Source of the DNA: Bettongia penicillata ogilbyi
Lineage: Eukaryota > Chordata > Mammalia > Diprotodontia > Potoroidae
Reading direction: 5' to 3'
Assembly (NCBI GenBank): GCA_023548195.1
Contig: JAJHZJ010000121.1
Location: 6,931,528 to 6,995,527 of the forward strand
DNA length: 64,000 nucleotides
Below the pieces are notes generated by a model, which was not told the origin of the DNA, did no database searches, and saw only the letters and a program-made list of their open reading frames with translations. This document shows positions 11,691 through 63,695 of the stretch, in pieces. How positions within the stretch are numbered: the first letter of the stretch is position 1; the number at the start of each line of letters is the position of its first letter. The position numbers were made by a program, and so were the translations under genes.

Positions 11691-17272
<5,582 letters not shown>

Positions 17273-37330: not shown

Positions 37331-38365
37331 CGTTTTTTTGTGTCAGTTTCATAGATAGGTAGATTAGATAGATAGATAAATAGATAGAGAGAGAAAGAGA
37401 GAGAGATGTTTCTTAGATACAAGTCTTTAGCAGTAATAATTAACATAAAGATTTTCCAATTGAGTAATTTATTTCCCAGATTCCATTTGCATTGATTTTA
37501 TTGGTGCAAAAGCATTTGAATGTTATATATAACATAATAATAGCTTTTAAACACCATCTATGGCATGTACTACTGGCTTATCATAAGTTTACATATATAG
37601 ATATATGTGGACAGAATATATATACACACACATATACACACATGCATATTGCAATAATTGCTTTAAGGAGTTAGTGGTGAGTCGTCATTACTTTTAACAC
37701 AGAAATCCAAAACAGGAGAAGTTTTTTGAGTGGGGATAACAAAGCAATGGTCTGAAAGAAGCTATGCATGTTAATGCCTCTGCTTTAATTTGAAATTCAG
37801 GAGAAATAGGTGAGAAGGGGACCTGTACTGAACAGAGTTTTCAGACATATTGTATCCTCAAAGAATAACTATATTTCTGTTAGAAATAGAAATGAAAACA
37901 AAAATTTATTGATAACTTAGGGCAAAGAGCACACCTGCAAAACTCCCAAGTGTTGCCTAAACCAGATTTAAATGGAATTGGGGAATGTTTAACAGTACAT
38001 TTTGATAATATTAATCTGTGGTTTTCTAAGTCAGTACCTGGCATGTAGAGATCCATTTCTATTTGAGTTTGATGGTACCGATTTAGGTGAATGTTTATGA
38101 TAGAATGGCATTTTCAAGGGCCTGGTGGTATGATGGTGAAGAGGAATAAATTGAACCTGGGTATGCATGAGATGAATGTTATAGCTATAAGAATTCAGGA
38201 GATAGCCAAGGGAAAAGATCTTTACCTAAGGTAGGTCAGGATAGTAGGGATCTGGTAAGTAGGATATTGAAAAACAGCCTGAAGGGATATACTAACTGTA
38301 AGAGGAGTGGATTATGAGTCTACCAAATTTAGTTAGAGGACATACTTTTAGAAATATCATTTAGG

Positions 38366-39355
38366 CCCCGTGCTGGCCGTGGGGGCTGGACGTGGACCTG
38401 CCGCCCCAGAGGCTGCCCTCGTCGGGGTGGGAACCAGCCCTGGGCAGCTGCGCAGGTGCGGAGCTGCATAGCCCCATTGAGGGGGACCCCGAGGCAGTTC
38501 CTGGGAGAAGACTGGGCGCTGAGAACCATGCAGGCCGGCAAGACCTTCAGCAAACGCCGCGCATCCTCGAACAGGCTGGACAGTGAGGAGATCGGGTTGA
38601 AACTTGAAGAAGCCAAAGAAATTCAGAACTTGGGGAGACGCCTAATGGGGTAAGTGCCGTAGCCAGCCTAGGTGGGGAGAAAGTACAAGAAGAGAAAACT
38701 CTAGTGGGCGATCCCTTTAAGATCAAGACTGATGGAAGAGTGGACATGAAGAAACTTCGGGAGAGAAACAAGGACAGGATTAATGAAGAGGAGGAATTCA
38801 ACTTAGGAACATCATTTTCAGCAGAAACCAAGCAAAGGGATGGAGATACTGACATAATGAAATACAATGAGACTGAGCTAAAGAAAAGGGAAGGAACAGT
38901 GGAAAATAAGGAGCAGAAGGTGAGGCTGAAGAATGCTGAAGACTGTCTCTATGAGCTCCCCGACAGCAAGCAAATCTCCTCAGTTAGGAAAACAGAGAAG
39001 TTGCTGTCCAACCGGATGCTGAGCAGCATCCCTGAGGTGGACTTAGGCATCGATGCAAAAATAAAAAATATCATTTCGACAGAAGATGCTAAGGCATGCC
39101 TGCTGGCTGAGCAACAGAACAGAAAGACAGTGAAACCTCTTTTGTTCCAGCTAACATGGCTGTGACCTATGTGCAGCACAATCGATTTTACCATGAAGAG
39201 CTCAAAGCCCCAGTTCAGAGGCACAAAGAAGAGCCGACAATCTGACCCCTCAAGAGAAGCCAGAACCTGAGAGGTCTCCTTCAAATCCCAAACATCCTGC
39301 CAAGGAAAAGACAGCCGATAATTATGAGAAGTTTAAGATGAATAGACACTATTGA
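38366..39355 (+). pseudogene. C9orf78: C9orf78 processed retropseudogene
   Basis: An intronless copy of C9orf78 (the TLS1-like, spliceosome-associated protein). Clear stretches are DSEEIGLKLEEAKEIQNL, then LGTSFSAETKQRDGD, then EVDLGIDAKIKNIISTEDA, then YVQHNRFYHEEL, and finally an ending close to YEKFKMNRHY and stop at 39355. There is a one-base loss near 38640 (a stop follows the RRLMG reading) and another near 39128, so it cannot make the full protein. The first 160 nt are GC-rich, unlike the AT-rich flanks, which fits a copied 5'UTR. Absence of introns plus frameshifts shows a dead retrocopy. No clear poly(A) tail was found within 500 nt. Confidence 0.9.
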
Positions 39356-41826: not shown

Positions 41827-41877
41827 TTTATAAGGGAGGTTGCCCTGGGCTCCTCCAACGCAGGTGATATCGACACC
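41827..41877 (+). promoter_or_regulatory. TATA box and short leader of the tandem micro-exon gene
   Basis: TTTATAAGGG at 41827-41836 is a TATA box. A start about 30 nt on, near 41858, leaves a leader of about 20 nt before an ATG in strong context (CGACACCATGG; A at -3, G at +4). The compact arrangement (TATA, short leader, signal-peptide exon) is usual for abundantly secreted vertebrate proteins. No other regulatory site was identified with confidence. Confidence 0.6.
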
Positions 41878-41956
41878 ATGGGTACCACCAAGATTTTCCT
41901 GCTCTTTCTCTCACTGACTCTGTTGGCCCTGAGCTCAGCTCAAAGCTCAGATGATG
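41878..41956 (+). CDS. Tandem micro-exon gene, exon 1 (signal peptide)
   Basis: Starts MGTTKIFLLFLSLTLLALSS and ends AQSSDD plus one base, with donor GATG|GTAAGT. A single basic residue precedes a 15-residue leucine-rich core and a small-residue cleavage site (SSA|Q), which is a classical secretory signal. Confidence 0.8.
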
Positions 41957-43167
41957 GTAAGTGGGGGAACACTGGGAAAATGTGGAGATTTGGAGTTCAT
42001 CCAATTCAAATGACAGGATTTGGGGCAAACTGTCTTTAATGATTCAGTTACTTTAGTTTTCCTAGAGTTAGATAACTGGACAGGTAGTTTTACTACTTCT
42101 ATAAATAAAAACTAGCATTTATATAGTACTATATGGTTTGCAAAGAACTTCATATCTTTATATCGCATCAGATCTTCACAACAATCTTGAGATATTAGGT
42201 ACAAGGGAACTGAGATCAAGCTAACTGAGAGAGGTTAACTGACTTACCTAGGCAGTATAGTGGGTAAGAGTCCTGGACTTGGAAGTAGGAGGACCTGAGT
42301 TCAAATCCTGTGTCAGACCTATACTAGTAGTGTGACTAAGCAAGTCTGTTTCCCTATTCATTACATTGTAGTTATTATGTATTTTGATTTGGAGGAAGTT
42401 CTTTCTGATTTTGTAAATTGGAGCTGATAGGAGCACCTGCTTTCTAAGATTAGTCCAAGGATCAAGTAAGAAAACGTATGTATAGCACTTCGCAAATTTT
42501 ATAGCACTATGTAAATGCTAACAATTATTAGTCATTATCATCATTGCAAAAGAGCTAATAAGTGTCCAAGGCAGAATTTAAACACCAGGCCTTTCTGACT
42601 CCAAATCTAGTGCTCTATCCATTGTTTTCCATCCCCTGCTAACAACTTCAGTAACCTTTCTCCAGCACTGAGCACAAACCCAAACTCAACATCTTCTTTA
42701 AGTAAACTGCTGTTCTACTTTGAAAGTGTTTGGTTATTTGTACCAAAATAGTAGAATGAAAAATAGATAATTCCATCATTCCTTCAGATATCTAATCATT
42801 GAGACAACAAACTCAAATATTTATTTTTTCCAGATGATTGAATTGTTTACTTTCCTCTCTAATTTGGACATTGGTTAGGCATTCTACTATCTTCGTTGTA
42901 TCAGTCTTTTTAGACTTATTTCATATCCCCTTTCACATTCTTCATTCAGTCAAATTGAACTATTGACTATTCCCTGCACATGACATTTCATCTCCTGCCT
43001 TTGTCCTCATGCCTGAAATATGCTCAGTTGTTGGCTATCTTTATAGAATCTCTAGCTTCCCCCAAGGAGAGGTCAGTAGCCACCTCCAGCATAGGGTCTA
43101 CCCAGATCCCTCAAATGTTTGTTCTGTCTGTCTGCCTGCCTGTCTCCCTCTCCCCCCTGCTCCTCTC

Positions 43168-43245
<78 letters not shown>

Positions 43246-46200
43246 CTCTCTGTCTCCTCATATTCCATTTGTAGCAGCACTTAACCAGAAACCTGCTCCA
43301 CAAGAAAGTAATTCATTTTCTTCTACAAAGCACATTTGTCTTTACTTGGGGCTTCTGGAGCTCTTTTTCACTGACACTCTACTTTTGTGTTTATGTTCAC
43401 AAAATTCATTAACCATACATAGGTAGGCTGGTTCAGTTAGTGGGCACTGATCTCTGCAGTGAGAGGAGATCTCATCTCCTTTTTTTCCCAGAGGGAGTTT
43501 TTCTTAATAACATCCTGGAGAATCTACCTTACTCTCCGTTCTTCAATGAAATAATCTCTGTCTCTTTCTCTGAATTTTAAATGGAATCTCCCTAGGGCTC
43601 CCATTTCATGAGAAAGAAGAGGGAAAGGGAGAGAAATATATTATCAGCAATCCTGAAAGACCAAATCCAAATCCAAAAGTTTTGGCACTGAAAAACTTCA
43701 CAGAGAATTCAGGATTCCAATTTTTCAAATCATTTACATAGCTTCCTCCATTATTCCACCCACATTCTCATCACAGACCTATTAAGTCTGGTCAACAAAT
43801 TGGATGGAGGACAGGATAGGTAGATAATAGGAAAATTGTCCAAATTTGTCCCATCAACTGTCATATTCTTTTTAGTAAATTGAAGTTCAGTCCGGAGAGG
43901 AATATCATGTTGAGTGAGGCTTGTACTTGAACTTCAAATCACTCTTAATGCTTCCTCTAGGCATAGCAATGGGTTTTATGAGGTACTCAATGCAAAAGAA
44001 AGAAGTCACAATCTCTTAGTGAAATTAGACTTCAATCTTCACTGAGTGTCACTACTTCTGGTTAAGTCATAGTGCTTCTCTTCTATCTTCCAGCATGTAT
44101 TGTTCAATTAATTTTACCCTGTTGGTTACCTTCATTAGTTCTACAGTTCCAGAGATAATTAACTAGCTGTCAACATTGCTACAATGGAAATTATTAGATG
44201 GGTGACCCCTACAAATGACCAATTTTGCATCCCTCTCTTCTCCATTTCTTTCATTTTATCTCACATCTCCCCTCTTAACAATGGTTTGATAGCCTCAATC
44301 CTCAATTTTATGATAAGATACACATCCTTTATCAGAGTAGATCCATTTTTGTGTTCCTGATAAAATCTCACTGAACTATGTTTAGTTGAATATATCTTGC
44401 CATACCTAGACTGACAAATGTGAGAGATGTATAACTTTTTTTGTAAATTTTACTTTTTCCTTTTCTTTACCCACAACAGCCTCCAGCCAGGACTCTACTG
44501 CCCAAGAAGGTAAGTCCTAATTTCATTGAGTCCCTTCCATTTCAAAAGTACTTGACCTATCAATCTGTAGAAAACTTAAGGATTCATTAGACTCTTCTCC
44601 TAGACCTCATTCTTTTCCTGTTGCCTTTCCCCCCATATTCCACCCGTAACAGCACTTAGCTAGCACCCTGCTCCATAAGAAAGTAATACATTTTCACCTA
44701 CAAACTACATATGTCTTTCTTTGGGGCTTCTGGAGCTCATTTTCCTTAATATTCTACTTTGAGGTTTATGGTTACAAAAGTCATTAGCCATGGAAAGATT
44801 GACTGGGTCTGTTGGTGAATATTGATCTCTCTTGTTAGAGAAGAACTTGTCTCCTTTTTCTCAGAGAGAGTTTTTTCTTAATATCATCCTGGACAATTTA
44901 CTTTACCCTCTATTTTTCAGTGAAATGGACTCTGTCTTTCTCTCTGACTTTTAAACTTTTAAACTTCCCTAGGGCTTCCATTTCATGAAAAAGAAGAGGA
45001 AAAGAGAGAGAAATGTAGTATCAGGGAATCCTAAAAGACCAAATACAAGTCCAAAAGCTTTGGCACTGGAAACCTGCATGGAGAAATGGGGATTCTAGTT
45101 GTTTTAATAATATTGCATAGCCTCATCCATTTATCCATGCAAGGTCTCATCTCATACCTATCCTTAAATCTGGCCAACAAATTGGATGGGAGTTAGAGTG
45201 GGGCAATAATAAGAAAATTGTCAGGATTGGTCCCATTTATGTCATATTAAGGTGGATCTTCTGTCCAGAGAGGAATATGATAGGGCTCCCATATAAAAAA
45301 AAAGAGAGAAAAATATATTATTAGCAATCATGAAAGACCAAGTGCAAGTCCAAAGGTTTTGGCACTGAAAAATTACATGGAGAAATCAGGATGCCAGTTT
45401 GTTTAATCTTTATGAACAGTTAACTCCATCTATTCACCCGAACATCTCATTTGAGACCCATCCTTAAATATGGTCAACAAACTGGATGAGTTTTAGGTTA
45501 GAGGATGACAGGAAAATTGACTGGCTTGGTGCTATTGTCTTCTTCTCTTTAGTAAGTGGAAGTTATCCCCAGAGAGGAGTATGATATTGAGTGAAGCTAT
45601 ATTAGAACATCAATCATGTAATGCTTCCTTTAGACACAGCAATGAGTTTTATGTGGTACTCAATGAAAAGAGATCACAGTCTCTTAGTGAAATTAGACTT
45701 TAATCTTCACTGTTTATCCCTTTTTCACCTCTACCTTTCAGCACCTGTCGTTCAATTAATTTTACTCCCTTGGTTACTTTCATTAATCCTAGAGCTCCAG
45801 AGATAACTAATTAGTTCTCAACATGGTCATGATGGAATTTTTAGATAAGTGGCCCCACAAATAACCACTTTTTCATCCCTCTCTTCTCCATTTCTTTGCC
45901 TATATCTCTCACTTCCCTTCTTAACTATGGTTTGATAGCACAAATTCTCAATTTTATGATGAGATATATATCCTCTGTCAAAGTAGATCCATTTTTGTAT
46001 TCCTGATAAAACCTCATTGAACTCTATCTACTTGAACATACCTTGCCACACCTAGATTGTTAAAAGGAGAGATGTAGAACTTTGTTGTGAATTTCACTTT
46101 TTCCTTTTCTTTGCCCGCAGTAGTCTCCACCCAGGACTCCACTGCTCAAGAATGTAAGTACTAATTTCATTGGTTACTTCTGCTTCGAACAATAGAAAAC

Positions 46201-49200
46201 CTGAGAATTCGTTAAGACTCTTTATCCAGACCTCATTCTTTTCCTCTATTTTTTCATATTCCCCCCACAAGAGCATGTTGCCAGCAACCTGCTCCACAAG
46301 AAAGAAATTCATTTTCATCTATAAACTACATTTGTCTTTCTTTGGGGCTTCTGGAGTTTATTTTCCCTGATCCTTTATTTTTGTGTTTATGGTCACAAAA
46401 GTCATTAACCATAGAGAGGTAGACTGGTCTAGTTAATGGGTATTACTCTCTGTTGTCAGGGGACATTTTATCTCTTTTTCCCAGAGGGAGTTTTTTCATA
46501 ATATCATCCTGAACAATCTACCTTACACTCCCTTCTTCAATGAAATTAACTCTGTATTTCTCTCTGAATTTTAAACTGGGTCCTCCCTAGGCCTCCCATT
46601 TATTGAAAGAGAGAAATGTAGTATTTGAAATCCTGAATGATCAAATCCAAATCTAAAGGTTCTAGCAATGAAATATTTCAGGAAGAAATCAAGATTCCAT
46701 CTGTTCTAACCTTTTTGCATAGCCTCCTCCATTATTCCACCCACACTTTTATCACAAACCTATCCTTAAATCTGGCCAACAAATTGGATGGGAGTTAGGG
46801 TAGGACAATAATAAGAAAATTATTGGGATTGGTCCCATCCATTGTCATATTAAGGTGGATCTTCTGTCTAGAAAGGAAAATGATATTCAGTGAGACTTAT
46901 TCTCGAACTTCAAATCACTTTTAATGTTTCCCTTAGAGCAATGACTTTTATTCAGTACTCAGTGTCAAGAAATGAGGTTACAATCTGTTAGTGAAATTAT
47001 AATCTTCATTGAGTATCACTATTTCTAGTTAAATCATACTGCTTCACTTCTATGTTCCAGCTTCTCTCTCTTGATTAATTTTACCCCCTTGGTTACCTTC
47101 ATTACTCTTAGAGCTACAGAGAAAATTAACCAGTTCTCTATATGGCTACAATGGAGATTATGTGATGGGTGGCCCCCACAGATAACCATTTTTTCATCCC
47201 TGTCTTCTCCATCTCTTTCACTATATTTCATACCTGCCTTCTAAGCTATGGTTTGAAAGTACAGATCTCAGTTTTGTGGTGAGCTATATATCTTCTGTCA
47301 AAGTGGATCCATTTTTGTGTTGCTGATAAAATCTCATGGAAAACCTACTTGAACATAATGCCCTACCAAGATTGATGAATATGAAAGACATAGAACTTTC
47401 TTGTAAATTTTGCTTTTTCTCTTTCTTTACCCATAATAGCCCCCAGCCAGGACTCTTCTACCCAAGAAGGTAAGTCTTAATTTCACTGGACCACTTCCAC
47501 TTCAAGAATATTTGACTTTCTCAATCAATAGAAAATGTGACAATTCATAAGACTCTTCCCTTGGACCTCATTCTTTTCCTCTTTTATTTTTCATATTCTA
47601 CCCATAGCAACACTTAGCCAGGAACTTGCTCCACAAGAAAGTAGCTCCTTCTTCTTCTACAAAAATACATTTGTCTTTCCTTGGGGCCTTGGGAGCTTGT
47701 TTTCCTTGATACTCTACTTCTGTGTTTATGGTCACAAAAGTCATTAACCATTAAGAGGTAGGCTGTCCAGTTAGTGGGTATTTATCTCTATTGTGAGGGG
47801 AGATCTTGTCTCCTTTTTCTCAGAGGGAGTTTTTTCTTAACATAATACTGGACACTCTACCTTACTCTCTCTTCTTCAATGAAATAGACAATGTCTGTCT
47901 CTGAATTTTAAACTTGGTTCTCACTAGAGCTCCCATTTCATAAAAAAGAAGAGAGAAAGACAGAGAAATGTAGCATCAGGAGTGCTGAATGATCAAATAC
48001 AAGTCCAAAGGTTTTGGCACTGAAAACTTTCATGGAGAAATCAGGATTCCAGGTTTTTTTTAACCTTTTTTGTTTTTCTGCCTCCACCCACTCACCTAGG
48101 GTCTCATCTCAGAACTGTACTTCAATCTGGCCAAAAAATTGGGTGGGATTTAGGGTAGGGAGAGCAGAGGAATTGGTGTTGGTTCCCAAAATTGTCATAT
48201 TGCTTTGAATATAACTTGCCTTGTTCAAAAACAAAACTCTTGAGATACATAGGAATCTTGTCCTAAACTTTATGCTTACTTTTTTTCTTTCCACAGAAGC
48301 AGCAAGTCAACAGCCAGCTGAACCTGAACGTAAGCCATAGTCTAATAGTCTTTCTCCTTGTACCTCATGGACCTTATATCTCATTCTAAATGAGTTGCAC
48401 ACTTATGGTCTTAAAGATGAGTACTCTGAAACACAGGGTAATGATGAACTACCAGTGAGGTCAAGTTATAAGAAATTATTCTCTTTTGCCTTTGCAAAGG
48501 TAATTTCCCAGGTCAAAAATCCCAGGGTTGCTTGGTTATCTGCAATTAAAACTTTCTGTCTGTCTCTGACTGTCTGTCTGTATGTCTATATCTGTCTTTA
48601 TCTGTCTCCTGCTAACTATTTTTAACTTTCGTACTTAAACCTTTAAGAGAGTTTTGTTTAAGAAACTGAAGAGGGAAAGAAAGAAATGAATTATCAAGAA
48701 CACTAATGGTCAAATACCTATAAAATTGCATCTGACAAAGAAAACGTAAATGACCATCCCTTTTTCTGACCTGGCTTGGGAAAAGCATTTTCAATTAGTT
48801 TCCATTATTTGCCTTTTGTGTTCTTCTTCTTAGTAGGTAAAAGATCAATGTGTATGGGTGTTCAAGGAGTTCTATCTCTTCTAGTGTGAGCACTTCTGAG
48901 GTCCTTCACAGGGCTACTCATCTACCTTTGGTGTCCACCTAACACCCTAACACCTGTGCCTCCTGAGGCTCTAGTTTACACAAACTCCACACCTCAGTAA
49001 AAACCATCTCAGTATATGGGCTAAAGCAGGTTGAGTATAACTAACAGGTCTTAAACCCATTACTGAGTTAGAGGGATGTCTACCCCAAGCACTTCAGAAC
49101 TTCCTCCCGGTGGAAGGGGTGGATGAGAATGATGTAATCCAAGAGCCAAAAAGAGAGCTGAAGCGTACTTACAGATTGATGAGATATTGAAGAAGTCGAG

Positions 49201-52200
49201 GTCATTCACTACATGGGAGGCCATTGTCAGTCCTCTTGATTTTGTCCTGCCATTAGACTTTGATGACTCTGGAACACAAAGCAAGGCTGACAACTTTGTA
49301 CAATTCTGCCTCACTTAAATCCAACTCACATACAAGTCACCATATCACCTGTGATGTCATTTGTCCTCCTTAAAAAGGAAAGAATGAATTAAAACAACAA
49401 CAGGTGTATTGCTTACCTTTCAACTAACTTTGAAGGTTTCACTCAGTACCAAAGAAATAGGTCACAAATTTTAACGAATTCAACTAGTTTTATTGCATAA
49501 CATTTTTGTAGTTCAGTCATACTTTTTCCACTATGTCATCCAGATATCTCTTTTTCAGTTGATCTATTGCCTCCACCATGGCTACCCCCATCAATTACCT
49601 AGAATTCAGGAGATGATTAAGTACTTTATGTTATAGTCACAAGAGGTATTGTGTGATCTGGATGATCACATCATCATGTAATTTTCCAACCATTTTATCT
49701 ATATTTCCTTCACCTTCTCATATATCCCCTATTTAATGGGTTACGAAAGTTTCAATGTGGAGGCAATGAATTCTGTATTTTATGATTGGATGTATATGTT
49801 CAAGCCAAGTAGATTCTTATGTTCCTGAAAGAATTCCATTAGGGTCCATCACTTTGAACATTGCTTGCCTTATTCACAACCAAAACTCTTGAAACTCTCA
49901 GGAACCTTGTCCTAAACTTCATGCTTACCTTTACCTTTTTCTATCCACAGAACAAGAAAGCCAACAACCTGCTGAACCTGAACGTGAGTAACAGTCCAGT
50001 ATTCTATCTCCTTGCAGCTCCTGGGCCTTATCTCTCATTCTTAACCTTTGAGATATTTATGGTCTTAAAGAGGAGTACCCAGAAATACAGGGTAAAAATG
50101 ATCAAAGAGTGAGGTCAAGTTGTAAGGAATTATCTTCTTTGGCTTTTTCATGTGTCCCCTTTTACAAGTAGGAAATTCCCCAAGTCAAAATTCCCAGGGT
50201 TGCTTGGTTATCTGCAATGAAATGCTTTCTGTCTGTCTCTGACTGTTTCTGTTTGCCTGTATCTGTCTCTGGATGTCTATCTTCTTCATACTTAAACCTT
50301 TGGAGGAGTGTTGCTTCAGAAACTGGAGAGGGCACGGAAGAAATATATTGTCAAGAACCCTAATAGTCAAATTCCTATAAAAATTGTACCTGAAAAGTAA
50401 AATAAATAAAATACTACTTCCTGGCCATATTTTTCACCTTTATGCAAAGCCTCTTCACTTCTCCTATGAAAGGACACATCTCAGACAGAGCCTCAAACTA
50501 GTCAAACAGCTGCCTACAGGGAGAGAGGGCAAGAAGAAATAACATGGTTGACAAGATATTTCTATCCTTCCTCTGCTCTTGGACTAAGGGAATCCATTTA
50601 GATTGATTTCTATTGAGTTTCCTTTCTTGCTGTTTCCCTTGATGAAAGACTAATAAGAAGATCATGTGTAAGTGACCATCCCTTTTTCTGACCTGTCCTG
50701 GGAAAAGCATTTTGATTTGCTTTCAAATTTTTTTGTCTTTTGTGTTCTTCTTAGTAGGTAAAAGATCAGTGTGTACTGGGTGGTCAAGGAGTTCTATCTC
50801 CTCTGGTGTGACCACTTCTCAGGTCCTGCACAGGGCTGCTCATTTAACTTTGGTATCCACCTAACATCCAGCTCTCAGCTGTGGCTCCCATGGCTTTAGT
50901 TTAATCAAAGACAAAACCTCGGTAAAACCATATCAGTATATGGGCTAAAGCAGGCCAAGGTAGCCAACAGACCTTAAACCCATTATTGAGTTAGAGGTAT
51001 GTCGACCCCAAGCACATCAAGACTTCCTCCTAGGGGAATGCGTGGATAAGACCAATGTATTGCAACAGCCAGAAAGAGAGCTGAAGCGTACTTAGAGGTT
51101 GATCAGATATTGAAAAAGCTGAAGTCTTCCACAATATGGGGGGACCATTGTCATTTCTATTAACTTTCGTCCTTCCATTAGACTTTGATGATTTTGGAAC
51201 AGAAAGTAAGGCTGACCACTTTGTGCAACTCTCCCTCATTTAAATCCAACTCACATGTAAGTTACCACATGACCTGTGATATCATTGGTCTTCCTTGAAA
51301 AGGAAAGAATGAATTAAAACAAGAACAGGTGAAAGATCTGTCCAAGAAGTGAAAGAGGCTTATTGCTTGCTTTTCAAATAATTTTGAAGGCTTCAGTCAA
51401 TACCAAAGAAATAGGTCACAAATTTTAACCAAATTCAATTAGTTCTACTGCATAATATTTTTGTGTTTCAGTCATACTGTTTCCATTATGTCATCCAGAA
51501 ATATTTTTCTCACCTGACCTACTCCCTCCCTCAGGGCTACCTCCATTAATTTCCTAGAATTCAGGAGATGATTAGTGACTTTATATTATAGTCATAAGAT
51601 ATACTGTGAGATCTAGATGATCCATCATCATCCAGTTTTCCATCCAACTTATGTCTATTTTGTTCACTTCTCATACATCCTGCATTTAATATGTTAAGAC
51701 AGTTTCAATGTGGAAGGAAAGAATTCTGTATTTTATGACTGACATGTATCTTCTAGCCAAGTGGATGCTTGTGTTCTTGGAAGATTCGCATTGGGGTGCA
51801 TCACTTTGAACATACTTTGCATTTATTCACTAGCAAAACTCTTGTGATTCACAGGGAATCTTGTCATGTATTTCATGCTTTCCTTTACCTTTTCTATCCA
51901 CAGAACAAGAAAGCCAACAACCTGCTGAACCTGAACGTAAGTAGTCATCTAATAATATTTCTCCTTGTATCTCCTGGATCTCATTTCTCATTCTTAACCA
52001 CTTGGATATTTATACTTGTTAAAGACGAGTACTCAGAAACACAGGGTAATGATGAACTAATAGAGAGGTTAAATTATATTGAATTATTCTCTTGCTTTTG
52101 CAAAGGGAATTCCCCAGGTCAAAAATCCCAGGGTTGCTTGGTGATCTGCAATGAAATCCTTTCTCTCTGTCTCTGACTGTTTCCGTCTGCCTGTATAAGT

Positions 52201-55200
52201 GTCCGGATGTCTCTTGCAGTCTACCTCTTTGTTCACATTTAAATCTGTAAAGGAGTGTTGCTTCAGAAGCTGAAGGGAGAACGAAAGAAATGAATTATCA
52301 AGAACCCTAAAGGCCAAATTTCTATAAAAATTGCATCTCGCAACCAAAATAAATAAAATAGTACTTCCTGACTCTATTCTCACCTTTATGCAAAGCTTCT
52401 TCACTTCTTCTATGAAAGGATCCATCTCAGACAGAGCCTCAAACTAGTCAAACAACTACCTACAGGGAGAGAAGGAAAGAAGAAGTAACAAGGATGACAA
52501 GATGTTTCTATCCTTCCTCCACTCTTGGACTAAGGGAATCAATTTAGATTGATTTCTATTGAATTTCCTTTCTTGTTGTTTCCCTCGATGTGAGACTAGT
52601 AGGAAGATCACATGTAAATGACCATCCCTTTTTCTGACCTTGCCTGGGAGAAGCATTTTGAATTACTTTTAATTATTTTTTTTGTTCTTCTCAGTAGGTA
52701 AAAGATCATAGTGTGGGGGATTTTCAAGGGGGCGTCCTATATCCTCTGGTCTGAGCACTTGTCAGGTCCTTCACAGGGGTGTTCATCTACCTTTGGTATC
52801 CACCTAACACGCAGCTCTCACTTGTGGCTCCTGTGGCTGTAGTTTACATAAAGACCACACCACAGTGAAACCATGTCAGCATATGGGCTAAAGGAGGTTG
52901 AGGTAGCCAGTAGTACTTAAACCCACTTTTGAATAAGAGGGATATCTACCCCAAGCCCAACAGGACTTCCTCCCAGCGGAATGCATGGATGAGAACAATG
53001 TATTCCAACAGCCAAAAAGAGACCTGAAGAGTACTTAGAGGTTGATCAGATATTGAAGAAGCTGAGGTCTTCCACTACATGGGGGGCCATTGTCAGTTCT
53101 CTTGATTTTTGTGCTATCATTAGACTTTGATGATTCTGGAAAAGAAAGTAAGGCTGAACACTGTGCAAATCTGCCTCACTTAAATCCAATTCACATACAA
53201 GTCACCACATCACCTATGATGTCATTGGGGGTCCTTGAAAAGGAAACAATGAATTAAAACAAGAACAGGTGCAAGATCTGTCCAAGAAATGAAAGAGCCT
53301 TGTTGTTTGCCATTCAACTAACTTTGAAGGCTTCACTCAATACCAAAAAATAGGTCACAAATTTTAACCAAATTCATCTAGTTCTGTTGCACAATATTTT
53401 TGTGTTTCAGTCATGCTGTTTCCATTATGTCATCCAGAAATCTTTTTCTCAATTGATCTATTCCCTCCTCCATGGCAGCTCCATTAATTTCCTAGAATTC
53501 AGGAGATCATTAGGTACTTTCCATTGTAGTCATAAGAGATATTGTGAGATCTGGATAATCACATCACCATCTAATTTTCCATCCAACTTATCTCTATTTC
53601 ATTCACTTCTCATATATATCCAGTATTTGATATGTTATGACAGTTTCAATGTGGAAGGAAGGAATTCTGTATTTTATGACTGGATATGTATCTTCTAGTC
53701 AAGTGGATGCTTGTGTTCCTGAAAGAATTCCATTGGGGTCCATCACTTTGAACATACCTTGACCTTTTTCACTAGCAAAACTCTTGTGATGCACAGAGGA
53801 TCTTGTCCTATAATTCATGCTTTCCTTTACCTTTTTCTATCCACAGAACAAGAAAGCCAACAGCCTGCTGAACCTGAACGTAAGTAATAGTCTAATAATA
53901 TATCCCCTTGTAGCTCCTGGACCTCATCTTTCATTTTAAACCACTTGGACATTTATAGTCTTAAATATGAGTACTCAGAAACACAGGGTAATGATGAACT
54001 CATAGTGAGGTCAAGTTATATTGAATTATTCTCTTTTGCTTTTGCAAACGGAATTCCCCATGGCAGAAATCTGAGGGTTGCTTGTCTATCTGCAATGAAA
54101 TCCATTCTGTCTGTCTCTGACTGTTCCTGTCTGCCTCTCTCTGTCTCTGGATGTGTCTTGCTCTCTATCTCTTTCTTCATACTTAAATCTTCAAAGAGGT
54201 GTTGGGTCAGAAGCTGAAGGGAGAAATGGATTATCAAGAGCCTCACAAGTCAAATTCCTATAAAAATTGCATCTCAAAACAAAAATAAATTAAATGGTAC
54301 TTCCTGACTTTATTTTTACCTTTTTGCAAAGCCTCTTTACTTCTTCTATGAAAGGACCCATCTCAGACAGAGCTTCAAACTAGTCAAAAAACAACCTACA
54401 GGCAGAGAGGGCAAGAAGAAATATCAAGGCTGACAAGATGTTTCTATCCTTCCTCTGCTCTTGGACTAAGGGATCATTTTAGATTGGTTTCTATTCAATT
54501 TCCTTTTTTGTTGTTTCCCTTGATGAGAGACTAGTAGGATGATCACATGTAAATGACCATCCCTTTTTCTGACCTGGCCTGGGAAAAGCAGATTGAATCA
54601 GTTTCCATTATTTATCTTTTGTGTACTTCTTCTTAGTAGGTGAAAGATCAGTGGATACGAGGTATTCAAGGAGTTCTATCTCCTCTGGTGTGAGCATTTG
54701 TCATGTCTTTCACAGGGCTGCTCATCTAACTTTAGTGTCTACCTAATACCCAGCTCTCACCTGTGCCTCCTGTGGCAATAGTTTACACAAAGACCATATC
54801 TCAGTAAAAACCATCTCAGTATATGGGCTAAAGCAGGTTGAGTGTAACCAACAGGCCTTGACCCATTATTGAGTTAGAGGGATGTCTACCCCAAGCACTT
54901 CAGGGCTTCCTCCCAATGAAATGGGGTGGATGAGAACAATGTAATCCAACAGCCATAAAGAGAGCTGAAACGTACTTACAGATTGATGAGATATTGAAGA
55001 AGGCAGTGGAGTAATTCAATGTTGATCAAACATTGAAGAAGTTGAGGTCTTCCACTACATGGGAGGCCGTTGTTAGTTCTCTTCACTTTTGTCCTGCCAT
55101 TAGACTTTGATGTTCCTGGAACAGAAAGTAAGGCTGACCACTTTGTGCAACTCTCCCTCATTTAAATACAATTCAATATAAGTCACCACACCATCTGTGA

Positions 55201-58200
55201 TGTCATTGGTCCTCCCTGAAAAGGAAAGAATGAATTAAAACAAGAACAGGTGAAAGATCATCTAAGAAGTGAAAGAGGCTTATTGCTTGCCTTTCAAATA
55301 ACTTTGAAGGCTTCATTCAATATCAAAGAAATAGGTCACAAATTTGCACCAAATTCAACAAGTTGTATTGAATGACATTTTTGTCATTGTCATATTTTTC
55401 CACTGTTTCTTTTTGAGATACCTCTTCTTCATTTGATCTCCTCCTTTCCTGAAGGCTACCACCATTAATTTCCTAGAATTCAGGAGATGATTAGCGGCTT
55501 TATATTATAGTCATAAGATATACTGTGAGATCTAGATGATCCATCATCATCCAGTTTTCCATCCAACTTATGTCTATTTTGTTCACTTCTCATACATCCT
55601 GCATTTAATATGTTAAGACAGTTTCAACGTGGAAGGAAAGAATTCTGTATTTTATGACTGAAATGTATCTTCTAGCCAAGTGGATGCTTGTGTTCTTGGA
55701 AGATTCCCATTGGGGTGCATCACTTTGAACATACTTTGCATTTATTCACTAGCAAAACTCTTGTGATTCACAGGGAATCTTGTCATGTATTTCATGCTTT
55801 CCTTTACCTTTTTCTATCCACAGAACAAGAAAGCCAACAACCTGCTGAACCTGAACGTAAGTAGTCATCTAATAATATTTCTCCTTGTATCTCCTGCCTC
55901 ATTTCTCATTCTTAACCACTTGGATATTTATATTTGTTAAAGACGAGTACTCAGAAACACAGGGTAATGACAAACTAATAGAGAGGATAATTATATTGAA
56001 TTATTCTCTTTCTTTTGCAAAGGGAATTCCCCATGGCAGAAATCCGAGGGTTGCTTGTCTATCTGCAATGAAATCCTTTCTCTCTGCCTCTGACTGTTTC
56101 CGTCTGCCTGTATAAGTGTCTGGATGTCCCTTGCAGTCTACTTCTTTGTTCACATTTAAATCTGTAAAGGAGTGTTGCTTCAGAAGCTGAAGGGAGAACG
56201 AAAGAAATGAATTATCAAGAACCCTAAAGGCCAAATTTCTATAAAAATTGCATCTCGCAACCAAAATAAATAAAATAGTACTTCCTGACTCTATTCTCAC
56301 CTTTATGCAAAGCTTCTTCACTTCTTCTATGAATGGATCCATCTCAGACAGAGCCTCAAACTAGTCAAACAACTACCTACAGGGAGAGAAGGAAAGAAGA
56401 AGTAACAAGGATGACAAGATGTTTCTATCCTTCCTCCACTCTTGGACTAAGGGAATCAATTTAGATTGATTTCTATTGAATTTCCTTTCTTGTTGTTTTC
56501 CTCGATGTGAGACTAGTAGGAAGATCACATGTAAATGACCTTCCCTTTTTCTGACCTTGCCTGGGAGAAGCATTTTGAATTACATTTAATTATTTTTTTT
56601 GTTCTTCTCAGTAGGTAAAAGATCATAGTGTGGGGGGTTTTCAAGGGGGCGTCCTATATCCTCTGGTCTGAGCACTTGTCAGGTCCTTCACAGGGGTGTT
56701 CATCTACCTTTGGTATCCACCTAACACGCAGCTCTCACTTATGACTCCTGTGGCTGTAGTTTACATAAAGACCACACCACAGTGAAACCATGTCAGCATA
56801 TGGGCTAAAGGAGGTTGAGGTAGCCAGTAGTACTTAAACCCACTTTTGAATAAGAGGGATATCTACCCCAAGCACAACAAGACTTCCTCCCAGCGGAATG
56901 CATGGATGAGAACAATGTATTCCAACAGCCAAAAAGAGACCTGAAGAGTACTTAGAGGTTGATCAGATATTGAAGAAGCTGAGGTCTTCCACTACATGGG
57001 GGGCCATTGTCAGTTCTCTTGATTTTTGTGCTATCATTAGACTTTGATGATTCTGGAAAAGAAAGTAAGGCTGAACACTGTGCACCTCTGCCTCACTTAA
57101 ATCCAATTCACATACAAGTCACCACATCACCTATGATGTCATTGGGGGTCCTTGAAAAGGAAACAATGAATTAAAACAAGAACAGGTGCAAGATCTGTCC
57201 AAGAAATGAAAGAGCCTTGTTGTTTGCCATTCAACTAACTTTGAAGGCTTCACTCAATACCAAAAAATAGGTCACAAATTTTAACCAAATTCATCTAGTT
57301 CTGTTGCACAATATTTTTGTGTTTCAGTCATGCTGTTTCCATTATGTCATCCAGAAATCTTTTTCTCAATTGATCTATTCCCTCCTCCATGGCAGCTCCA
57401 TTAATTTCCTAGAATTCAGGAGATCATTAGGTACTTTCCATTGTAGTCATAAGAGATATTGTGAGATCTGGTTAATCACATCACCATCTAATTTTCCATC
57501 CAACTTATCTCTATTTCATTCACTTCTCATATATATCCACTATTTAATATGTTATGACAGTTTCAATGTGGAAGGAAGGAATTCTGTATTTTATGACTGG
57601 ATATGTATCTTCTAGTCTAGTGGATGCTTGTGTTCCTGAAAGAATCCCATTGGGGTCCATCACTTGGAATATACCTTGACCTTTTTCACTAGCAAAACTC
57701 TTGTGATGCACAGAGGATCTTGTCCTATAATTCATGCTTTCCTTTACCTTTTTCTATCCACAGAACAAGAAAGCCAACAGCCTGCTGAACCTGAACGTAA
57801 GTAATAGTCTAATAATATATCCCCTTGTAGCTCCTGGACCTCATCTTTCATTTTAAACCACTTGGACATTTATAGTCTTAAATATGAGTACTCAGAAACA
57901 CAGGGTAATGATGAACTCATAGTGAGGTCAAGTTATATTGAATTATTCTCTTTTGCTTTTGCAAACGGAATTCCCCATGGCAGAAATCTGAGGGTTGCTT
58001 GTCTATCTGCAATGAAATCCATTCTGTCTGTCTGTGACTTCCTGTCTGCCTCTCTCTGTCTCTGGATGTGTCTTGCTCTCTGTCTCTTTCTTCATACTTA
58101 AATCTTTAAAGAGGTGTTGCTTCAGAAGCTGAACGGAGAAAGAAATGGATTATCAAGAACCTTACAGGTCAAATTCCTATAAAAATTGCATCTCAAAACA

Positions 58201-61200
58201 AAAATAAATTAAATGGTACTTCCTGACTTTATTTTTACCTTTATGCAAAGCCTCTTCACTTCTTCTATGAAAGGACCCATCTCAAACAGAGCCTCAAACT
58301 AGTCAAAAAACAACCTACAGGGAGAGAGGGCAAGAAGAAATATCAAGGCTGACAAGATGTTTCTATCCTTTCTCTGCTCTTGGACTAAGGGAATCATTTT
58401 AGATTGGTTTCTATTCAATTTCCTTTTTTGTTGTTTCCCTTGATGAGAGACTAGTAGGATGATCACATGTAAATGACCATCCCTTTTTCTGACCTGGCCT
58501 GGGAAAAGCAGATTGAATCAGTTTCCATTATTTATCTTTTGTGTACTTCTTCTTAGTAGGTGAAAGATCAGTGGATACGAGGTATTCAAGGAGTTCTATC
58601 TCCTCTGGTGTGAGCATTTGTCATGTCTTTCACAGGGCTGCTCATCTAACTTTAGTATCTACCTAATACCCAGCTCTCACCTGTGCCTCCTGTGGCAATA
58701 GTTTACACAAAGACCATATCTCAGTAAAAACCATCTCAGTATATGGGCTAAAGCAGGTTGAGTGTAACCAACAGGCCTTGACCCATTATTGAGTTAGAGG
58801 GATGTCTACCCCAAGCACTTCAGGGCTTCCTCCCAATGAAATGGGGTGGATGAGAACAATGTAATCCAACAGCCATAAAGAGAGCTGAAACATACTTACA
58901 GATTGATGAGATATTGAAGAAGGCAGTGGAGTAATTCAATGTTGATCAAACATTGAAGAAGTGAGGTCTTCCACTACATGGGAGGCCGTTGTTAGTTCTC
59001 TTCACTTTTGTCCTGCCATTAGACTTTGATGTTCCTGGAACAGAAAGTAAGGCTGACCACTTTGTGCAACTCTCCCTCATTTAAATACAATTCAATATAA
59101 GTCACCACACCATCAGTGATGTCATTGGTCCTCCCTGAAAAGGAAAGAATGAATTAAAACAAGAACAGGTGAAAGATCGTCTAAGAAGTGAAAGAGGCTT
59201 ATTGCTTGCCTTTCAAATAACTTTGAAGGCTTCATTCAATATCAAAGAAATAGGTCACAAATTTGCACCAAATTCAACAAGTTGTATTGAATGACATTTT
59301 TGTCATTGTCATATTTTTCCACTGTTTCTTTTTGAGATACCTCTTCTTCATTTGATCTCCTCCTTTCCTGAAGGCTACCACCATTAATTACCTAGAATTC
59401 AGGAGATGATTAACTACTTTATATTAGAGTCCCAAGTGATATTGTGACATCTGAATGATCACATCATCAGCCAATTTTCCATCCAACTTATCTCTATATT
59501 TTTCACTTCTCATACATCCTGTATTTAATATGTTATGACAGTTTCAACGTGAAAGGAAGGAATTCTATATTTTATGAGTGGATATATATCTTCTAGCCAA
59601 GTGAAATGCTTGCATTCCTGAAAGAATTCCATTGGAGTCATTTACTTTGAATATACCTTGACCTTATTCACTAGCAAAACTCTTGTGATTCACAAGGAAA
59701 CTTGTCCTACACTTCATGCTTTTCTTTAACTTTTTCTATCCACAGAACAAGAAAGCCAACAGCCTGCTGAACCTGAACGTAAGTAATAGTCTAATAATCT
59801 TTCTTCTTGTAACTCCTGGACCTTATCTGTCATTTGAAACCACCTGGACATTTATGGTCTTAAGATGAGTACTCAGAAACACAGAGTAATGATGAACTAA
59901 TAGGAGGTCAAGTGATATTCAATTATTCTCTTTTGTCTTTGAAAAGGGAATTCTCCAGGTCAGAAATCCCAGGCTTCCTTGTTTATCTTCACTGAAATGT
60001 TTTCTGTCTCCCTCTGACTGTTGCTGTCTGCCTACATCTGTCCCTGGATGTCTCTTGCTGTCCTCTTTCTTCATACTTAAACCTTTGAAGGAGTGTTGCT
60101 CCAGAAACTGAAGGGGGAAGGAAACAAATGTGTTGCCAAGAACCCTAATGGTAAAATTCCTATAAAAATTGAATCTGAGAAACAAAATAAGTAAAATATT
60201 ACTTCCTGGTCATATATTTCAAATTTATACTAAGTCTCCTAACTTCTGCAAAAGGACCCATCTCAGACAGAGACTCAAACTAGTCAAACAACTGGCTACA
60301 GGGAGAGAGGGAAAGTAGAAATCACAAGATTGGCAAAATGTTTCTCTCCTTCTTCTGCTCTTGGACTAAGGGAATCAATTTAGATTGATTTCTATTGAAT
60401 TTACTTTCTTGTTGTTTCCCTCAATGTGAGAATAGAAGGAAGATCACATGTAAATGGCCATCCCTTTTTTCTGACCTGGCCTGGGAAAAGCATTTTGAAT
60501 TAGTTTCCATTATTTGTCTTTTGTGTTCTTCTTAGTGGGTAAAAGATCAATGGGTATGGGGTATACATGGAGGACTCTCTCTTCTGGTGGGAGCACTTGT
60601 CAGCTCCTGTACAGGGCTACTCATCTACCTTTGGTGTCCACCTAACACCCAGGTCTCACCTGTGGTTCCTGTGGTTATAATTTACATAAAGACCACACCT
60701 CAGTAAAAACCATGTCAGTATATGGACTAAAGCAGGTTGAGGGTAACCAACAGACCTTATTACTCATCACTGAGTTTGAGGGATGTTGACCCCAAGCACA
60801 TCAGGACTTCCTCCCAGTGGAATGCGTGGATGAGAACAATGTGTTTCAATAGTGAAAAAGAGAACTGAGGCAGGCAGTGGAGTACTTAGACGTTGATCAA
60901 ACATTGAAGAAGTCGAGGTCTTCCACTACATGGGAGGCTGTTGTTAGTTCTCTTCACTTTTGTCCTGCCATTAGACTTTGACATTTCTGGAACAGAAAGT
61001 AAGGCTGACAACTTTGTGCAACTCTCCTCATTTAAATCCAATTCATATACAAGTCACCACATCATCTGTGATGTCATTGGTCCTCCTTGAAAAGGAAAGA
61101 ATGAATTAAAATAAGAACAAGTGAAAGATTTGTCCAAGAAGTGAAAGAGGCTTATTGCTTGCCTTTCAAATAATTTTGAAGGTTTCAGTCAGTACCAAAG

Positions 61201-63695
61201 AAACAGGTAACAAATTTTAACCAAATTCAAACTAGTTATATTGAATAACGTTTTTGTAGATAATTCATATTTTTCCACTGTGTAACCAAGATATCACTTT
61301 TTCACGTGATCTCCCTCCGTGATGGCTACCACCATTATTTACGTAGAATTCAGAAGATGATTAATTATTTCATATTAGAGTCCCAAGTGATATGGTGAGA
61401 TCTGGATTGATCACATCAGCATATAGTTTTCCATCCACCTTATCTCTATTTTGTCAACTTCTCATACATCCCATAATTAATGTGTTATGAAAGCTTCAAT
61501 GTGGAGGGAATCAATTCTGTATTTTATGATTGGATGCATATATTGAAGCCAAGTAGATCCTTATGTTCCTAAAAGAATTCCATTAGGGGTCCACCACTTT
61601 GAACATTGCTTGCCTTATTCACAACCAAAACTCTTGAAATTCTCAGGAATCTTGTCTGAAACTTCATGCTTTCCTTTCCTTTTTTCTATCCACAGAACAA
61701 GAAAGCCAACAACCTGCTGAACCTGAACGTGAGTAACAGTCCAGTATTCTATCTCCTTGTAGCTCCTGGACCTTATCTTTCATTCTAAACCATTTGGATA
61801 TTTACGGTCTTAAACATGAGTACCCAGAAATACAGGATAATGGTGAACTAATAGTGAGGTGAAGTTATAAGGAATTATTCTCTTTTGCCTTTGCATATGA
61901 CCCCTTTTTAAAGTAGGAAATTCCCCAGGTGTGAAATACCAGGGTTGCTTTGTTATCTGCAATGAAATCCTTTCTGCTGTCTCTGTTTCTGTCTATATCT
62001 CTCTCTGTCTCTTTCTGTCCATCTTTTTCTTCACACTTAACCCTTTGAAGGAGTGTTACTTCAGAATCTGAAGAGGGAAAGAAAGAAACAAGGTATCAAG
62101 AACTCTAAACGTCACATTCCTATGCCAGATAGAAGCTGAAAAAGCAAAATAAATAAAATCCTGCTTCCTGGTCCTATTTTTCACGTTTGTGCAAAGCCTC
62201 TTCACTTCTTCTATGAAAGGACCCATCTCAGACTGAGCCTCACACTAGTGAAACACCTACCTGCAGGGAGAGAGGGCAAGAAAAAGTAAGAAGACTGGAA
62301 AGATATTTCTGTCCTTCTTCTGCTCTTTGGACGCGGGGAATCAATTTCGATTGATTTCTATGAATTTCATTCCTTGTTGTTTCCCTCGATGTGAAACTAG
62401 TAGGAAGATCACATGTAAGTAACCATCCCTTTTTCTGACCTGGCCTGGGAAAAGCATTTTGAATTAGTGTCCATTATTTGTCTTTGGTGTTTTTCTTCTT
62501 AATAGGTAAAAGATCAATGTGTATGGGGTATTCAAAATGTTCTATGTCCTCTGCTGGGAGCATTTGTCAGGTACTTCCCAGGGCTGCTCAGCTAACTTTG
62601 GTGTCCCACCTATCACCGTAATCTGTGGCACCTGTGGCAATAGTTTACACAAAGACCACACCTCAGTGACAGTAATGTCAGTATATGGGCTAAAAACAGG
62701 TTGAGTGTAAACCAACAGGCCTTAAACCCATTGTTGAGTTAAGAGGGATGTCTACCCCAAGCACATCAAGACTTCCTCCTAATGGAATGGGTGGGATGAG
62801 AACAAGGTGTTCCACCAGTCAAAAAAAGAGGTGAAGTGTACTTAGAGGTTGATCAGATATTGAAGAAGCCGAGGTCTGCCACTACATAGGGGTCTATTGT
62901 CTGTCCTCTTACCTTTTTCCTTCCATTAGACTTAGGTGACTGGAATAGAAAGTAAGGCTGATGATGTTGTACAACTCTGCCTCATTTAAATCCAATTCAT
63001 GCACAAGTCACTACATCACTGTGATCCTCATTGATCCTCCTTGGAAAGGTAACAATGAATTAAAACAAGAACTGGTGAAAGACCTGTCGAAGAAGTGAAA
63101 GAGGCTTATTGCTTGCCTTTCAAATCGTTTTGAAGGTTTCAGTCAATACCAAAGAAATAGGTCGCAAATTTTAACCAAGTTCAACCAGTTCTATTGAATA
63201 ACATTTTTGGAGTTAATTCATATTTTTCCAGTGTCACCGAGATATCACTTTTTCACTTGATCTCCTCCCTCCCTGATGGCTACTACCATTATTTACCCAG
63301 AATTCAGGAGATGATTAATTATTTTATATTACAGTCCCAAGTGATTTTTGTGAGATCTGGATTGTTCATGTCAGCATCTGCTTTTCCATCCAACTTATCT
63401 CTATTTCGTTCACTTCTCATATATCCTGTATTTAATATGGTATGAACATTTTAATGTGGAAAGAAGAAATTCTATACTTTATGACTGGATATGTGCCTTC
63501 TAGCCAATTGGATGTTTGTGTTCCTGAAAGAATTCCATTGAGGTCCTTCCCTTTGAACAAACTTCTCCCTTATTCACTAGCAAAGCTCTTGCAAAGCTCT
63601 TGTGATTCACAGGAAATCTTGTCCGATACTTCATGCTTTCCTTAACCTTTTTCTATCCACAGAACAAGAAAGCCAACAACCTGCTGAACCCGGAC
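41878..63695 (+). CDS. Unrecognised secreted repeat protein, tandem micro-exon gene (partial, 13 exons seen)
   Basis: Exons: 41878-41956, 44480-44509, 46121-46153, 47440-47469, 48297-48329, 49951-49983, 51904-51936, 53847-53879, 55824-55856, 57764-57796, 59746-59778, 61696-61728 and 63663-63695. All junctions are phase 1 and all have AG/GT sites. The join gives about 156 residues up to the window end: a signal peptide, three S/Q/D/T-rich decapeptides, one EAASQQPAEPE, seven identical QQESQQPAEPE and one QQESQQPAEPG. No cysteine follows the signal peptide. The product should be a secreted, disordered, acidic Q/E/P-rich protein. Its function is unknown. The repeated Q pairs could serve transglutaminase, as in involucrin, but this is a guess. 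The stop codon and 3' end lie beyond the window. I know of no matching gene at this site in other mammals. Transcription is not shown by sequence alone. Confidence 0.75.
42105..42540 (+). repeat. MIR-type SINE relics in intron 1
   Basis: 42105-42230 has an antisense-like end. 42255-42345 ('gaggacctgagttcaaatcc') and 42415-42535 ('agcactatgtaaatgctaac') look like the two ends of one sense SINE, parted by about 70 nt of L1-like text. Confidence 0.5.
43163..43242. repeat. (CT)n microsatellite
   Basis: About 80 nt of near-pure CT in intron 1, followed directly by the start of the class A repeat block. It makes a spurious poly-Ser/Leu frame on one strand and Arg/Glu on the other. Confidence 0.95.
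44480..44509 (+). CDS. Tandem micro-exon gene, exon 2 (class A)
   Basis: 30 nt between ACCCACAACAG and GTAAGT. With the shared first base it reads ASSQDSTAQE. Confidence 0.75.
46121..46153 (+). CDS. Tandem micro-exon gene, exon 3 (class A)
   Basis: 33 nt if the first acceptor (GCCCGCAG) is used, reading VVSTQDSTAQE. With the next AG, three bases on, it is 30 nt and reads VSTQDSTAQE like its sisters. Donor GAAT|GTAAGT. Confidence 0.72.
47440..47469 (+). CDS. Tandem micro-exon gene, exon 4 (class A)
   Basis: 30 nt between ACCCATAATAG and GTAAGT; reads SPSQDSSTQE when joined to exon 3. Confidence 0.74.
48297..48329 (+). CDS. Tandem micro-exon gene, exon 5 (transition)
   Basis: 33 nt between TTTCTTTCCACAG and GTAAGC; reads EAASQQPAEPE. 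It has the class B second half but a different first half. The intron before it is class A and the one after it class B, so it marks the switch between the two repeat families. Confidence 0.75.
49951..49983 (+). CDS. Tandem micro-exon gene, exon 6 (class B)
   Basis: 33 nt between CTATCCACAG and GTGAGT; QQESQQPAEPE. The GTGAGT donor is shared only with exon 12. Confidence 0.77.
51904..51936 (+). CDS. Tandem micro-exon gene, exon 7 (class B)
   Basis: 33 nt between CTATCCACAG and GTAAGT; QQESQQPAEPE, with CAA at the fifth-sixth glutamine pair. It is the first member of the first copy of the 3.92 kb dimer. Confidence 0.77.
53847..53879 (+). CDS. Tandem micro-exon gene, exon 8 (class B)
   Basis: 33 nt between CTATCCACAG and GTAAGT; QQESQQPAEPE. 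It differs from exon 7 only by a silent CAA to CAG. Confidence 0.77.
55824..55856 (+). CDS. Tandem micro-exon gene, exon 9 (class B)
   Basis: 33 nt, identical to exon 7 along with most of its intron. It is the second dimer copy, offset 3920. Confidence 0.77.
57764..57796 (+). CDS. Tandem micro-exon gene, exon 10 (class B)
   Basis: 33 nt, identical to exon 8 (CAG form), offset 3917. QQESQQPAEPE. Confidence 0.77.
59746..59778 (+). CDS. Tandem micro-exon gene, exon 11 (class B)
   Basis: 33 nt between CTATCCACAG and GTAAGT; QQESQQPAEPE in the CAG form. Confidence 0.77.
61696..61728 (+). CDS. Tandem micro-exon gene, exon 12 (class B)
   Basis: 33 nt between CTATCCACAG and GTGAGT; QQESQQPAEPE. 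Both flanks resemble exon 6 more than its neighbours. Confidence 0.77.
63663..63695 (+). CDS. Tandem micro-exon gene, exon 13 (class B, variant end)
   Basis: 33 nt between CTATCCACAG and GTAAGT; reads QQESQQPAEPG. The final Glu to Gly and a CCT to CCC change make it the first variant class B exon. Another intron of the same type follows to the window end. Confidence 0.76.

Follow-up and report, generated by a model that had tools for sequence, protein, structure and literature searches.

Three described kinds of gene come closest in build to the one considered here, a candidate gene made of a tandem array of micro-exons, which lies at 41827–63695 of a 64,000-nt stretch of DNA (the window) from Bettongia penicillata ogilbyi (GenBank assembly GCA_023548195.1, contig JAJHZJ010000121.1, positions 6,931,528 to 6,995,527, forward strand). 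The salivary proline-rich protein (PRP) genes, according to PMC3235478, carry repeats of 20–21 residues within one or few long exons, with a variable repeat number and about 40% Pro in the basic PRPs; one of them, PRB1, has a 16-residue signal peptide and introns splitting codons 22 and 34. The kringle IV type 2 (KIV-2) part of LPA is a coding tandem array with exons located in 5.6-kb units, present in 1–40 units (PMC11462820), and the micro-exon genes (MEGs) of Schistosoma code for secreted proteins from exons of 3–81 bp with long introns between them (PMC10526429). By analogy, the build of the Bettongia gene may be seen as a variant on these kinds: a coding multi-kb array like LPA KIV-2, composed of micro-exons like the schistosome MEGs, and with a PRP-like layout. 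The predicted gene is very likely living and functional, of unusual build, and growing by unit duplication, because of its open phase 1 layout, the apparent shared descent of its micro-exons, the conservation of one class of them (the B exons), and an in-frame duplication.

The gene model comprises exon 1 and twelve micro-exons, three of 30 nt (A1–A3) and nine of 33 nt (B1–B9), spread across 21.8 kb, and is confirmed as a sequence layout. Joined, they give a single open frame of 155 codons with all 12 junctions in phase 1; each micro-exon is preceded by AG, followed by GT(A/G)AG, and is of phase 1-1. The start codon is the ATG at 41878, surrounded by caccATGG and preceded by a leader. The start-to-start spacings of the exons are 2602, 1644, 1316, 857, and 1654 nt as far as B2 and 1940–1982 nt beyond it. 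The components of the model are as follows:

41827..41834, + strand: TATA box (TTTATAAG), TATAA at 41829, 44–51 nt upstream of the ATG; putative promoter element
41878..41956, + strand: exon 1, coding part, 79 nt, predicted signal peptide followed by QSSDD, ending in phase 1
44480..44509, + strand: micro-exon A1, 30 nt
46124..46153, + strand: micro-exon A2, 30 nt (33 nt with the start at 46121)
47440..47469, + strand: micro-exon A3, 30 nt
48297..48329, + strand: micro-exon B1, 33 nt, the most divergent of the B copies
49951..49983, + strand: micro-exon B2, 33 nt
51904..51936, + strand: micro-exon B3, 33 nt
53847..53879, + strand: micro-exon B4, 33 nt
55824..55856, + strand: micro-exon B5, 33 nt, a recent copy of B3
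57764..57796, + strand: micro-exon B6, 33 nt, a recent copy of B4
59746..59778, + strand: micro-exon B7, 33 nt
61696..61728, + strand: micro-exon B8, 33 nt
63663..63695, + strand: micro-exon B9, 33 nt, the last in the window; its last full residue is G, not E

An earlier note on this DNA had described a TATA box, a leader, a signal-peptide exon, and twelve phase 1-1 micro-exons bordered by AG and GT(A/G)AG, all of which is borne out by these coordinates and the 155-codon frame; the in-frame joins, which it counted as thirteen, number 12. It had also argued that chance could not keep these joins in frame. However, they are not independent, and an open frame says little by itself, since the exons resemble one another, likely owing to a single ancestor, and a second reading frame is likewise open across the micro-exons; the conservation of the B exon argues more strongly for the gene being real.

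The splice sites were scored by a weight matrix and ranked among all the GTs and AGs of the window. The 13 donors belong to the top 0.06–2.9% of GTs, with the exon 1 donor in the top 0.25%, and the 12 acceptors to the top 0.02–3.6% of AGs. In A2, two candidate acceptors lie three bases apart, placing the exon start at 46121 or 46124; the first scores higher, and its use adds one Val with the frame unchanged.

Conservation of the B exons against their introns was assessed in an alignment of six of the nine B units (B2, B3, B4, B7, B8, and B9), B1 being omitted as too divergent, and B5 and B6 as recent duplicates. The six units display 81% pairwise agreement over gap-free columns. Only 3 of the 33 exon columns are variable, two of the three synonymously, while 33-column windows of the intron have a mean of 14.8 variable columns and a minimum of 4, with none of the 1642 overlapping windows (about 50 independent ones) at three or fewer; the binomial probability of the exon's conservation is 1e-5, assuming independent columns. 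Ranked by mean identity, the B-exon window (0.964) is 20th of 1702, and the top window (0.984, from 49941) includes the exon's acceptor. The splice sites of the B units are conserved as well (0.93 for the acceptor and 0.91 for the donor). The exon of the divergent B1 has 25–28 of its 33 nt in common with the other eight B exons, compared with 55–63% identity across the aligned units. In the last eight B codons, a subset picked post hoc, four synonymous changes to one non-synonymous were counted by hand (P 0.016), which suggests, at the level of sequence, a protein-level constraint on this part of the repeat.

All the micro-exons look descended from one ancestral micro-exon, a relationship deduced from similarities that extend beyond the exons themselves. 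The A and B units show 58–63% identity outside the exons too, over 190–580 nt (best E 4e-21, among the 14 of 26 matches listed). Moreover, four further copies are found in the A region. A'0 follows exon 1 at a distance of about 1.3 kb, and each of A1, A2, and A3 is followed, 121–144 nt further on, by its own copy (A'1, A'2, and A'3, respectively):

43275..43307, + strand: A'0, open micro-exon-like copy of 33 nt (or 30 nt) with a weak donor, GTAATT; optional or decayed exon
44653..44682, + strand: A'1, decayed copy with two in-frame stops
46274..46303, + strand: A'2, decayed copy, donor GT lost
47608..47640, + strand: A'3, open 33-nt copy with a weak donor, GTAGCT; probably decayed

These copies were first spotted by eye, and their consensus served as a 36-nt probe, with which both strands of the 64 kb were scanned at a threshold of at least 22 matches. 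All 15 matches on the + strand are array copies (A'0–A'3, A1–A3, and B2–B9), no match was found on the - strand or on the + strand outside the array, and six shuffled probes gave 0–1 match per strand. B1 lies under the probe threshold and is joined to the family by its exon and by a 70–74% similarity of its upstream flank to the A introns. A'0–A'3 can be read, from their sequences, as decayed or optional exons.

A run of CT dinucleotides (43163–43256) is located just upstream of A'0, and its length could alter the splicing of that copy. A 24-nt block bordered by AG and GTAAGG (at 51182, 53124, 55104, 57041, 59023, and 60975) was considered as a second exon of each unit and rejected since it varies like an intron: 8 of its 22–24 columns are variable, 26% and 45% of the intron windows, in two row sets, are equally conserved, GC replaces GT in B2, and the frame is broken in B9. 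The surroundings of the block at 57001–57142 are 62–63% similar to 2377–2520; both stretches are probably copies of an interspersed repeat, to which the block may belong.

The array has likely grown via tandem duplication of units composed of an intron and an exon. One such duplication, with a period of about 3.92 kb and 98.1% identity across 3.8 kb, comprises two dimer units:

51547..55490, + strand: dimer unit, copy one (B3 and B4), boundaries within about 50 nt
55466..59409, + strand: dimer unit, copy two (B5 and B6), 98.1% identical, boundaries within about 50 nt

Beyond the dimer ends the identity drops to 58–88%, with a short upstream piece (51300–51398) keeping 92–94%. The duplication resulted in the gain of B5 and B6, i.e., of 22 codons, with the frame intact. 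The intron upstream of B5 matches that of B7 at 92–99% over most of its length, as expected if the former was copied along with the dimer. We infer unequal crossing-over between the 1.95-kb units as the cause of the duplication. Because the 3.9-kb duplication inserted two copies without a break of the frame, the predicted protein can likely grow or shrink stepwise; the proposal, likewise made in the earlier note, that its length is changeable in the genome gains a concrete instance in the 3.92-kb in-frame dimer duplication of this one assembly. New copies (the 98%-identical dimer), a core under conservation, and dying copies (those with stops or a lost donor) can be seen next to each other in this single array.

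The translation of exon 1 is MGTTKIFLLFLSLTLLALSSA, by eye a typical signal peptide followed by QSSDD, and its predicted cleavage is likely after Ala21. The mature part encoded in the window has 134 residues (Q 31%, E 22%, S 15%, P 14%, and A 10%), an isoelectric point of 4.05, a grand average of hydropathy of −2.1, a charge of −34, and zero Cys, Lys, Arg, and aromatic residues; from this composition the predicted chain is expected to be disordered. The reading that we favour, and hold to be reasonably probable, takes the locus as a predicted gene for a repeat protein that is predicted to be secreted and is likely disordered. One candidate micro-exon of phase 1-1 corresponds to each repeat of 10 or 11 residues, and tandem duplication of whole units has likely enlarged the array. 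Unequal crossing-over between the 1.95-kb units would then lead to repeats being gained or lost without a frameshift, and the symmetric exons would also permit skipping, tuning the length. The spliced product, cleaved after Ala21, would be released by an exocrine epithelium as an acidic chain rich in Gln, Glu, and Pro. A weakly binding motif, present in this chain many times over, may act collectively in a manner likened to the acidic salivary PRPs, the repeat number setting the avidity; the targets of the chain might be minerals, microbes, or dietary polyphenols, or else it might act as a lubricant. A bolder proposal, which we regard as doubtful and advance tentatively, is that of a marsupial-specific secreted protein without a relative outside the lineage, the length of which would depend on a macrosatellite made up of coding micro-exons. 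Unequal crossing-over would make alleles vary in increments of 11 or 22 residues, and splicing would pick among identical symmetric exons, so that a single gene would yield a graded series of chain lengths, adjusted both genomically and by tissue. If the gene is expressed, the growth of a repeat protein through exon duplication would be directly readable here, and the locus would hint at why such genes, with 30-nt exons and lacking sequence relatives, evade annotation.

Relatives of the predicted protein were searched for among 5.8 billion proteins by a method relying on shared 5-residue words and a fitting length, which diverged, very short, or much longer relatives can escape. None of the 7990 candidates scored for the whole predicted protein (lengths about 85–271 residues) reached E 0.001, and none of the 64 for residues 1–56 (lengths about 152–483 residues) reached E 10. 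Marsupial proteins are present in the database, since a control open reading frame (ORF) of the window, resembling C9orf78, retrieved 349 proteins, with Dromiciops and Monodelphis among the 120 listed. The PDB search with the predicted protein gave 0 matches, NCBIfam three weak matches only, far under the cut-off, and the Rfam and tRNA scans found none; viral and prokaryote contigs, when scanned for exact patterns, likewise contained none, as expected for animal DNA. A description of the gene was not found in the literature titles and abstract openings surveyed, among which the coverage of subscription journals is thin. The assertion that the gene represents no known family thus holds in that annotated relatives are absent from the protein and PDB searches, but its layout resembles that of salivary PRP genes, LPA-type coding arrays, and micro-exon genes, all of them already known.

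In LPA KIV-2 each unit codes for one folded kringle. Similarly to it, the nine B exons are arranged in tandem in-frame units (1.94–1.98 kb from B2 on) together with an intron, and a dimer has been duplicated, their coding use being predicted; unlike in LPA, the unit carries a 33-nt micro-exon of a likely disordered peptide, and the likeness drawn here is one of layout. With the schistosome MEGs the gene shares a predicted secreted protein derived from short exons spaced by long introns. MEGs, however, are flatworm genes with other motifs, in which a hydrophobic/aromatic segment follows the signal peptide, whereas the exons of this vertebrate array are nearly identical copies of one another.

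The nearest parallel is offered by the PRP genes (PRB1–4 and PRH1/2), which likewise have a Gln-rich low-complexity product; in PRB1 the signal-peptide exon stops within the codon for mature residue 6, and the exon after it is short, as in the array gene. The first split codon is that of mature residue 6 in PRB1 and likewise here, provided that cleavage follows Ala21, and the second exon is 30 nt long here, whereas in PRB1, whose split codons 22 and 34 are 12 codons apart, it measures about 36 nt. The common split codon would be accounted for if the gene genuinely belonged to the PRP family, as a divergent member that had multiplied its short second exon rather than a long third one, and so would a match of its N-terminus to Pfam PF15240; all the same, we consider such membership unlikely. 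The match amounts to 28.7 bits (E 2e-6) for the whole 155-residue protein and 26.2 bits for its first 78 residues, both under the 30-bit gathering cut-off, and to E 2.4e-4 for residues 1–56, while a piece of human PRB1 used as the positive control scored 52.4 bits. It is mostly due to the signal peptide because three of four controls with the mature part shuffled still matched (18.4–24.4 bits), while none of four with the signal peptide shuffled did, nor did the repeats by themselves. Furthermore, phase 1 introns are in general overabundant near signal-peptide cleavage sites (PMC1626468). The gene also differs in that each of its repeats is an exon with an intron of about 1.9 kb, whereas PRP repeats share long exons, in containing only 14% Pro, and in its neighbourhood, with a METTL21C-like gene nearby, whereas human PRB genes are on chromosome 12 (PMC10573131). 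The layout of the gene is a better likeness than its profile score, and that the product works like a PRP is plausible by analogy.

Gln-rich substrates of transglutaminase, such as the semenogelins and involucrin, are well known, and 31% Gln in short repeats behind a predicted signal peptide would suit a protein of this kind, crosslinked via its glutamines in a seminal plug or an epithelial coat; with zero Lys in the visible part another source would be needed for the partner lysines, and we take this explanation to be improbable. Secretory calcium-binding phosphoprotein genes, which include those of caseins and enamel proteins, have phase 0 introns, a feature that the array gene lacks, 12 of its 12 junctions being of phase 1. 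Small fast-evolving secreted milk proteins do occur in marsupials, and PMC5054531 places MM1, of 98–99 residues, about 8 kb from TESPA1, gives VELP four exons, and states that devil VELP has no NCBI or Ensembl gene prediction. The array gene, also predicted to code for a secreted protein of a fast-changing sequence type, might be sought in the gland-secreted GLYCAM1/lacritin/MUCL1 cluster, to which VELP and perhaps MM1 belong. We find this highly improbable, as the neighbour seen within the 64 kb, in which no search aimed at TESPA1 was made, is a METTL21C-like gene, whereas MM1 lies near TESPA1, and the size of MM1 and the exon count of VELP differ; identity with marsupial MM1 or VELP itself was rejected.

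The last alternative is a non-coding or dying array of duplicated intronic units, in which the exon-like blocks are kept as splicing or regulatory elements and not for a protein. The four additional copies, of which two are plainly broken, would fit it, as would the lack of an annotated relative in the searches, the codon pattern over the full B repeat, the splice-like 24-nt mock exons within the B units, and a second conserved block in the intron near 48755 (about 48755–48790, with counterparts in the other B units), whose mean identity of 0.960 is close to the 0.964 of the exon. Several further observations weigh with this block against the favoured reading of a gene for a secreted repeat protein. 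A count by hand across the full B repeat of 11 codons gave 4 synonymous and 4 non-synonymous changes (P 0.11, not significant). The conservation case for the A exons is weaker than that for the B exons, the A-exon window (0.879) lying between the 95th and 99th percentile of its alignment, with at least four intron blocks higher. The B donors, with C at −1, are only fair, the model runs off the window end, so that the last exon and the stop lie past it, and the missing annotated match could also mean that the gene is not expressed. The binding role proposed for the chain, moreover, derives from composition and analogy. On the other hand, no counted intron window has as few variable columns as the B exon, whose splice sites are conserved and which is in frame with the signal peptide, while the mock exon varies like intron; we give a dying array little credence. 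The conserved intron block near 48755 is perhaps a splicing or regulatory element.

Elsewhere in the window, a METTL21C-like C-terminal part is encoded at 11691–12140 on the - strand (E 3.4e-74 to 4mtl), which by itself marks the DNA as that of a vertebrate; a marsupial origin is plausible from the sequence. METTL21E, a close METTL21C paralogue, is a possible alternative identity, and human METTL21C lies on chromosome 13, unlike the PRB genes. The segment 15796–16020, also on the - strand, is by eye likely a further METTL21C exon, with no Pfam match. The C9orf78-like (Hep_59) copy is located at 38333–39165 on the + strand; by eye its start is in a different frame from the rest, and it is probably a processed pseudogene. 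It was the only one of ten ORFs of the window, compared with Pfam in search of neighbour genes such as TPP2, to score above a cut-off. Cores resembling short interspersed nuclear elements, of a marsupial look, occur at five places in the window.

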